Shown here: positions 20,351 to 51,470 of the stretch, piece by piece
Layout of the letters: each line of letters opens with the position of its first letter
Position numbering within the stretch: the first letter of the stretch is position 1
Origin: Leptolyngbya sp. FACHB-8
GTDB taxonomy: Bacteria > Cyanobacteriota > Cyanobacteriia > Elainellales > Elainellaceae
Length of the DNA stretch: 64,000 nt
NCBI RefSeq assembly: GCF_014695575.1
Contig: NZ_JACJOO010000009.1
Coordinates: 1 to 64,000, forward strand
Direction: 5' to 3'
Notes under the pieces: generated by a model
Databases searched by the model: none
Seen by the model: the letters and a program-made list of their open reading frames with translations, nothing else
Told to the model about the DNA's origin: nothing
Translations under genes and position numbers: made by a program

Positions 20351-20472
20351 ACCTGAGTTCGGGATAAGCTGAAGTGCTCATTTTGGCGTGCGCAGAGCGC
20401 ATGCCAAAATGAGCGTTTTCGAGTGCCGCGCGTTGCGCGGCACTCGAAAACGCCCTTAACCTGAACTCAGGT
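20351..20472. mobile_element. Palindromic element family A, copy 1 (intact)
   Basis: A 122-bp element with perfect 10-bp terminal inverted repeats (acctgagttc at 20351-20360, gaactcaggt at 20463-20472), flanked by a 7-bp direct repeat ttaaata (20344-20350 and 20473-20479), which looks like a target duplication. Inside are two hairpins: arms 20376-20393/20397-20414 (18 bp, one G.T wobble, loop AGA) and arms 20413-20431/20435-20453 (19 bp perfect, loop GTT). It encodes no protein. Homologous copies lie near 37983 and 51209. Confidence 0.8.
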
Positions 20473-37870: not shown

Positions 37871-37982
37871 AAGCCCATCCGATACCACAAACTCAATCCT
37901 ATTTTCGAAAACTGGAAACGCTCTCTGGAACTAGCTTCAGGAGGAAATCCCCTCTCTTTCTGCCCTTTCAGGGATTACATCA

Positions 37983-38245
37983 CCCCACTTCGGAATAAGC
38001 CGAAGTGCTCATCTTTGTAGGCGCGACACGCACGCAAAAGTGGATGTTTTCAAGGGTCACGTCTTGCACACAGCAATTTTCAGTATGAGCTTCAAAGCTG
38101 AGAGTTCCTGCCCTTCGGGCACGAACTCTCAGCTTTGAAGCCCGAAAATAGCCCGCCGAAGGCGGGCTATTTTCGGGTTGGATTCCAAAATGAGAATTGC
38201 TGTCTTGCACAGCACTTGAAAACGCCCTTGGGCCACGCTGAGGTT
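37983..38245. mobile_element. Element family A, copy 2 (degenerate, interrupted by B)
   Basis: It aligns with copy 1 at both ends (ggaataagccgaagtgctcat on the left half, cttgaaaacgccctt on the right half), but its hairpin 1 has decayed. Hairpin 2 (tttcaagg... cttgaaaa) is split in its loop by a family B element at 38071-38202. Without B and one copy of the duplicated 9-mer, the A sequence becomes continuous. It lies in the 487-bp space between the EcsC-like gene and pyrE. Confidence 0.7.
38071..38202. mobile_element. Element family B, copy 1, with 9-bp target duplication
   Basis: This 132-bp element runs from cagcaattttca to tgagaattgctg (terminal inverted repeats, one mismatch) and is flanked by a perfect 9-bp direct repeat tcttgcaca (38062-38070 and 38203-38211). 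Inside: hairpin I, arms 38089-38113/38117-38141 (25 bp, one mismatch, TTC loop), and hairpin II, arms 38141-38157/38161-38177 (17 bp perfect, GAA loop), then a 13-base spacer. It has no coding capacity and sits inside element A copy 2. Confidence 0.85.
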
Positions 38246-51208: not shown

Positions 51209-51470
51209 GGCTCAGTTTGGGCAAGCTGAAGTGTCCATTTTGGCATGTGCGCAGCACACGCCAAGAAGGGCGTTTTCGAGCGCCGCATATGGCGTGACAT
51301 TCGAAAACGCCCTTCATTCAAACTCAGCAATTCTCAGTATGGGTATCAAAGCCAAGAGTTCACGCCCTAGGGGCGTGAACTCTTGGCTTTGATACCCGAA
51401 AACCGCGCGCCAAAGGCGCGCGGTTTTCGGGCCTGATTTCAAAATGAGAATTGCTGGTTCAAACTGCTGA
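51209..51470. mobile_element. Element family A, copy 3 (interrupted by B)
   Basis: It aligns with copy 1 from ggctcagtttggg through gcaagctgaagtg, hairpin 1 (ttggcatgtgc/gcacacgccaa) and hairpin 2 (outer arms gggcgttttcga/tcgaaaacgccc). Its right end is split by a family B element at 51325-51456. Together A and B fill most of the 457-bp space between the DUF4278 gene and the 61-codon gene at 51544. Confidence 0.7.
51325..51456. mobile_element. Element family B, copy 2, with near-perfect target duplication
   Basis: This 132-bp copy has perfect 12-bp terminal inverted repeats (cagcaattctca / tgagaattgctg). It is flanked by attcaaact (51316-51324) and gttcaaact (51457-51465), an 8-of-9 direct repeat. 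Hairpin I arms are 51341-51367/51371-51397 (27 bp perfect, TAG loop); hairpin II arms are 51397-51411/51415-51429 (15 bp perfect, AAA loop, two more pairs possible outside). Same length as copy 1. Confidence 0.85.

Follow-up and report, generated by a model that had tools for sequence, protein, structure and literature searches.

Nezha, which is attributed to Zhou in 2008 and is said to be a cyanobacterial MITE, resembles the element described here by that description alone. A further likeness is found in Acinetobacter: according to passages of the report on MITEAba12 and ISAba12 (PMC6382973), a 113-bp non-coding MITE shares its ends with a DDE IS of about 1 kb and shows 9-bp duplications, as our element does. 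MITEAba12 is described in those passages as AT-rich (78%) with a resident IS, whereas the element at our locus, element B, has two GC-rich hairpins, other ends, and no resident IS that we could detect. Among the MITE and IS papers listed, none was found to describe element B, judging from the listings and the cited passages, and its 12-base end turned up in two papers, both on other subjects by title. What is new in B is the pairing of hairpins together with the clues to their upkeep; the kind of element, a MITE, is itself known.

The hairpins have their own precedents. In yeast inverted repeats, template switching leaves two signatures, arm homogenization and spacer inversion (passages of PMC8604942), and stem extension and loop inversion are predicted from template switching in excerpts of PMC8794818. 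Arm homogenization, loop inversion and stem-extending insertions are common to those systems and to B; the cited passages concern yeast coding genes and rRNA, whereas here the hairpins belong to many copies of a mobile element. Among the papers listed in a narrow literature search, which is no proof of absence, there was none on template switching in MITEs.

Results

Element B interrupts a second palindromic element

We analyzed a stretch of 64,000 nucleotides from Leptolyngbya sp. FACHB-8 (hereafter the window), which contains the following features:

20351 to 20472, no strand assigned: intact family A element, 122 bp, with a 7-bp flanking repeat (candidate-pair search)
37982 to 38244, forward strand: host family A MITE, 122 bp after removal of B and one 9-mer (hand-counted boundaries)
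38062 to 38070, no strand assigned: left 9-bp target duplication TCTTGCACA (direct reading)
38071 to 38202, forward strand: element B, 132-bp two-hairpin MITE (reading; about 42 BLAST relatives; 263 end sequences)
38071 to 38082, forward strand: terminal inverted repeat at the left end, CAGCAATTTTCA; CAGCAATTCTCA is its commonest form (reading)
38089 to 38141, no strand assigned: palindrome of hairpin 1, with the loop TTC and a single C-C mismatch (self-match)
38141 to 38177, no strand assigned: hairpin 2 palindrome, loop GAA (self-match)
38191 to 38202, reverse strand: right terminal inverted repeat of B (reading)
38203 to 38211, no strand assigned: right 9-bp target duplication TCTTGCACA (direct reading)
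51325 to 51456, forward strand: second B copy, placed at the end of another A element

Direct reading found TCTTGCACA twice with a 132-bp non-coding element between the two occurrences, confirming to the base the original prediction of an element bounded by perfect 9-bp repeats. The left end CAGCAATTTTCA and right end TGAGAATTGCTG of this copy are complementary at 11 of 12 positions, and the commonest form of the terminal repeat elsewhere is CAGCAATTCTCA. B is short and without coding capacity, its interior filled by the terminal repeats and the two palindromes, which were located by self-matches. The C-C mismatch in hairpin 1 is a one-sided change relative to copy L002. The original prediction knew of no named element with this structure; in these features, as in those given below, B fits the definition of a MITE.

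Taking out B and one 9-mer restored an element of 122 bp, as long as 19 of the 20 family A elements in our alignment, and this sequence aligned without gaps over the junction to intact A copies (C25:40546-40652, 75.7% identical; C83:237938-238044, 74.8%). The 6-bp flanks of the host element, TACATC and TATGTC, are 4/6 alike by hand count. Intact A copies serve as paralogous empty sites for the window insertion. The best of six other genomes (G001, same genus) aligned at 73% within the neighboring gene but showed no alignment at the insertion point, and shortened parts of four joined flanks (1957 bases; nine flanks amount to 4680 bases) gave no match over any junction in four genomes.

Family A is a second two-hairpin MITE of 122 bp with ends ACCTCAGTTCGGG, found at 20351-20472 in the window, on contigs C83, C54 and C61, and elsewhere. 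Exact flanking repeats of 6-8 bp were present in 28 of 41 candidate A pairs, 19 of them 6 bp long; the repeats are mostly 6 bp, start with T on the right side, and accompany loops in both orientations.

Copies, target duplications and insertion sites

The genome is a 6.9-Mb draft in 95 contigs, 99.47% complete. About 42 places match the window copy of B by BLAST, and the 12-bp end CAGCAATTCTCA occurs 263 times (reversed control, 0), a difference that arises because several B subfamilies exist. In 1.203 Mb, made up of sampled stretches and the window, we found 37 end pairs lying 130-139 bp apart with flanking 9-mers alike at 7/9 or better, which extrapolates to about 210 copies in the genome. 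This search had one valid control: a single reversed string had been used for two of the three control ends and gave 1 pair, and the remaining control end, which differed from the real one by two mismatches, picked up the same elements (38 pairs).

Target duplications of at least 7/9 flanked 71 of 78 full-length B copies (47 at 9/9, 20 at 8/9 and 4 at 7/9); the sampled sequence of this genome held 79 end pairs at distances of 120-138 bp, and the 78 are what remains after setting aside one mis-pairing (L038:997, 131 bp). By hand arithmetic, the probability that two 9-mers taken at random reach 7/9 is about 0.0013. Seven copies fell below 7/9, one of which (L040:980) stands in a flush tandem with its repeat offset by one base. 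The second window copy is flanked by ATTCAAACT and GTTCAAACT (51316-51324 and 51457-51465; 8/9), and identity to the window copy reaches 98% among other copies that have perfect duplications. B is therefore a set of multiple dispersed copies whose sequences make its mobility appear close to certain, in line with the claim that a palindromic non-coding unit jumped into a different palindromic element by way of a 9-bp staggered cut. The original prediction had allowed that the 9-mer might be a coincidence if related strains always carried A plus B and no other copy of B had direct repeats; as regards other copies, the 71 that do carry them speak for mobility.

When insertions were removed to restore the site, 1 of 61 testable sites fell in an ORF of at least 150 aa (7/61 for at least 100 aa), against 75.5% (79%) of 600 random positions. 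Nearly all of the sites tested are intergenic. At the 66 sites whose duplications match at 8/9 or better, the target preference was weakly A/T; the duplications are 40% G+C, against about 50% for the genome. The loop of a palindrome, proposed earlier as the target of the window insertion, is not supported as a general target. Loop targeting as a rule was rejected on this weak A/T preference, on the ORF counts and on the second window copy, which is inserted at the A end rather than in the loop because its left flank matches A until the last few bases.

B inserts into family A and also into or beside other B copies. Among 69 copies with both sides tested, another B end starts 9 bases beyond the element on 4 sides and 8 bases beyond it on 3, and every other offset up to 129 holds at most one B end; these sides make up five distinct junctions, two of which were counted from both sides. 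B pairs split by exactly one 8-9 bp duplication were seen at L018:1360-1632, C14:7919-8188, L040:980-1250, L002 and C54:4503. The tandem partners in L018, C14 and L040 differ in sequence, which gives them the look of elements that inserted separately into a single point, and targeting directed by existing ends is a possibility.

Several further arrangements were observed. The B copy at L018:1501-1632 resembles a chimera of two subfamilies, for which the adjoining copy could be the left-half donor. Another copy (L086:1769-1900) sits in the end of a B copy with the duplication AATTGCTGT. The B copies at L084:1501 and L087:1516 are interrupted by family A elements, so nesting between A and B runs both ways. 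Contigs C51, C48, C32 and C14 start inside B copies (L058-L061), and near-identical MITEs thus probably broke the draft assembly.

A probable partner IS with the same ends lies in other genomes

We searched the genome for a resident full-length IS with B ends. None was present among the ten ends not followed by B; the seven PF01609 loci had no end pair with at most two mismatches in each end; and one ISAs1 model, searched in this genome, returned nothing. End pairs more than 1 kb apart with 7/9 flanks numbered just two in 1.2 Mb (1813 and 2814 bp); each of their ends carries three mismatches, and they enclose no recognizable transposase. A resident full-length IS with B ends was rejected on these empty searches.

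Other genomes gave a different result. A 17-base end pattern occurred in 130 of 388 genomes of the same class, some of the occurrences as pairs about 1.4 kb apart. Among eight long pairs, two 1420-bp IS copies in genome G023 (L186 and L187) carry the perfect 9-bp duplications CATCGCCAG and CCTACTGTC; a 1410-bp copy whose frame is in pieces had a duplication of 8/9 (L190); two copies with intact frames had none (L188 and L189; 1/9 and 3/9), nor did the end pairs in L191, L192 and L193. The ends of one B subfamily, CAGCAATTCTCAGTATGG and CAGCAATTCTCATTTTGG, set against the IS ends, CAGCAATTCTCAGTATGGCG and CAGCAATTCTCATTTTGGCG, show that the terminal repeats are shared, and B has the same duplication length as the IS (9 bp), both of which are traits of a MITE.

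From 80 relatives taken from named genomes we examined 40. Ends of the CAGCAATTC type with perfect 9-bp duplications flanked 14 of these, and 2 more had 8/9; the 14 span six genomes, three of them cyanobacterial (Pseudanabaena biceps, Arthrospira and Leptolyngbya) and the others from Competibacteraceae, Caldilineaceae and Sulfurospirillum. The remainder of the 40 showed no such duplication, and several non-cyanobacterial ones were without such ends. A search with the IS transposase matched 24 of 60 genomes, many of the matches being fragments, and gave no match in the draft genome studied here or in its same-genus relative. The IS group with its 9-bp duplications is found in genomes of four phyla, and its MITEs are readily located by their fixed ends. 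The fitting IS is the likely partner of B, judging from these sequences; the link stands on shared ends and duplication length because the donor transposase is absent from the assembly. A full-length IS with B ends and 9-bp duplications, which the original prediction had suggested looking for, was not found in the draft genome and was present in others. Its companion claim, that the transposase acts in trans, gains support from the matching IS elsewhere and from a draft genome in which no transposase homolog was detected.

Arthrospira sp. PCC 9108 holds many IS copies (L254-L264), with perfect duplications in 6 of the 7 examined. The frame of L254 may be broken or programmed to shift, because its translation has three stops and its matches are 1303-1306 bp. 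Genome G183 holds 190 end sequences and, among those listed, many lie some 120 bases in from the start of a contig; its assembly was perhaps broken by a burst of full-length IS.

The transposase of the probable partner has a predicted Tn5-like fold

The partner transposase is 435 aa long. For the transposases scanned, no Pfam or NCBIfam model scored above its cut-off, with weak matches only to DDE_Tnp_1, IS4 and IS701, and a PDB sequence search found no relative at E up to 1. Thirteen aligned transposases are 49-83% identical to the first and have invariant acidic residues, of which D127, D216 and E336/E338 are candidates for the DDE residues. A structure model built from the 13 relatives (best mean pLDDT 83.5; five models, 65.9-83.5) matched the Tn5 transposase with Z 22.4 and rmsd 4.1 over 358 aligned residues, and the next unrelated structure match was piggyBac (Z 14.0). 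The predicted fold is thus alike to that of Tn5/IS50 transposase, at 12% identity over the structural alignment. Tn5/IS50 makes a 9-bp duplication. By alignment and structure model, the transposases of the IS group appear to be one related DDE family with a predicted Tn5-like fold.

One of 16 plasmid records with relatives, from Gloeothece verrucosa PCC 7822, carries the label 'ISNCY family transposase', and its transposase is 47-48% identical to that of the partner IS. ISNCY is a holding class rather than a family, and its ISMae2 subgroup makes 9-bp duplications.

Hairpin arms change together and loops occur in both orientations

We aligned 70 copies of B, about a third of the estimated number, and found 2762 of 2857 stem cells (96.7%) to be Watson-Crick pairs. 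The copies were linked by a minimum spanning tree, which is not a true phylogeny. Along edges of at most 4 differences there were 8 two-sided compensated changes against 0.27 expected, and along edges of at most 10 differences 32 against 2.4, an excess over chance of 13 to 30 times between close copies; over all edges there were 74 against 11.1 expected, with a maximum of 23 in 2000 permutations. Sliding the partner position by one to five bases lowered the 32 to 1-8. Where edges had no more than 10 differences, one-sided changes numbered 77 against the 32 two-sided ones. Private compensated pairs came to 16 in 11 copies, with 39 other private states.

Loops fall in reverse-complement pairs in 62 of 70 copies for hairpin 1 and 57 of 70 for hairpin 2. 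In hairpin 1 the two orientations are balanced (TTC/GAA 11/11, GTA/TAC 12/17, GAC/GTC 6/5), and mismatch cells show no strand preference (GT+TG 39, AC+CA 37), which argues against RNA selection; hairpin-2 loops lean one way (GAA 24 vs TTC 12, p 0.07; AAA 13 vs TTT 8; pooled 37 vs 20, p 0.03), which argues mildly for it. Some changes in single copies have the look of one-step events. L020 has gained 5 nt that are complementary to the opposite arm, L027 has lost 3 nt symmetrically, adjacent compensated pairs, two in number, mark L019 and L039, and L010 differs from L002 solely by one compensated pair and an exact loop inversion.

Family A hairpins look like those of B, with exceptions among the loops and the mismatches. 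In 20 A copies, picked for having flanking repeats and considered with no null model for A, 722 of 739 cells were paired, with several compensated pair types. Loops were found in both orientations for AAA/TTT (6/5), GTT/AAC (6/5) and GAA/TTC (3/2), and on one side for GAC (5 vs GTC 0) and for GAA in hairpin 1 (2 vs TTC 0); mismatches were CA+AC 10 vs GT+TG 5.

Similar architectures occur beyond this genome. In three genomes from two other genera of the same family (G012 and G025; G013), elements of 131-143 bp share the ends of B but have two hairpins that differ from it in sequence, and several of these elements show 9-bp duplications, and G296 holds a 117-bp two-hairpin element with the same ends and an 8/9 duplication. 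MITEs of 122-143 or 207-224 bp in yet other genomes likewise share the ends, are often flanked by perfect 9-bp duplications, and do not have two long hairpins; the hairpins thus seem not to be required for use of the ends.

Discussion

We consider it very probable that B is a MITE moved in trans by the transposase of an IS with the same ends, and that its hairpins are kept by template switching. The IS group of B would have the ends CAGCAATTCTCA[GT]T[AT]TG and would cut its target with a 9-bp stagger; a same-end transposase, not detected in the genome now, would mobilize B in trans through a cut-and-paste mechanism. During replication the polymerase would switch template at the inverted repeat, so that one arm would be copied from the other, homogenizing the arms, and the switch would sometimes invert the hairpin loop. 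The compensated changes, the balanced orientations of the hairpin-1 loops and the lack of strand preference among mismatches fit template switching during replication better than RNA selection, and we infer that template switching is the likely keeper of the B hairpins. Selection on unsampled source copies could produce part of the compensated pattern.

The other readings concern either the hairpins or the source of movement. If B were transcribed and served as a terminator, mRNA stabilizer or small RNA, compensatory mutations would restore pairing under selection, a reading that the very stable predicted fold (-88.7 kcal/mol), the intergenic sites (1/61 in an ORF of at least 150 aa) and the lean of the hairpin-2 loops (37 vs 20) would favor. 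Intergenic location is equally what purifying selection leaves behind, however, mismatches are even between the strands (39 vs 37), and the balance of the hairpin-1 loops contrasts with rRNA, where three stable loop classes outnumber their reverse complements by factors of 36, 66 and 8 according to excerpts of PMC8794818. No Rfam family matched the window at gathering score, on which ground a known structured RNA family was rejected, and we regard RNA selection as unlikely. Whole hairpins might instead be swapped between B subfamilies by recombination or gene conversion: several compensated pairs are differences shared by subfamilies, and L018:1501 is chimera-like for two subfamilies. That chimera breaks the pairing of hairpin 1, however, and the 16 private compensated pairs in 11 copies are without a donor among the sampled copies, so that swapping seems quite improbable as the keeper of the hairpins.

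The recent activity of B, with copies up to 98% identical and perfect duplications, could also suggest that a different resident transposase recognizes the same ends, given that the fitting transposase was not found here. The search, which covered PF01609 and one ISAs1 model, argues against this: the seven PF01609 loci lack an end pair within two mismatches per end, the ISAs1 model was empty, and the end pairs more than 1 kb apart in 1.2 Mb have three mismatches per end and no recognizable transposase. We consider such a mobilizer distinctly unlikely. B is short, palindromic, intergenic and present in high copy number, as would be expected of a REP/REPIN-type palindrome if a REP-associated single-strand transposase had moved it, but it has 12-bp terminal inverted repeats and 9-bp target duplications. 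Transposases of the REP-associated kind are not known to duplicate their target, and by its own duplications B departs from that type; such an origin is hardly credible.

The probable upkeep of the hairpins by template switching bears on how palindromic repeats are read more widely, since perfect stems in bacteria are often taken as a sign of RNA or protein-binding function. The roughly 200 copies of B, 70 of which were compared, together with family A, which has other ends, act as replicates for telling a mutational cause apart from selective effects, and the evidence mostly favors template switching. We give an even chance to the broader proposal that two-hairpin MITEs are self-maintaining palindromes through template switching, and that the flush B insertions may mean that existing ends direct incoming copies. 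If this is true, template switching, rather than host function or RNA selection, would perfect the arms, flip the loops and lengthen the stems, and the structure of many bacterial palindromic repeats would be a mutational attractor.
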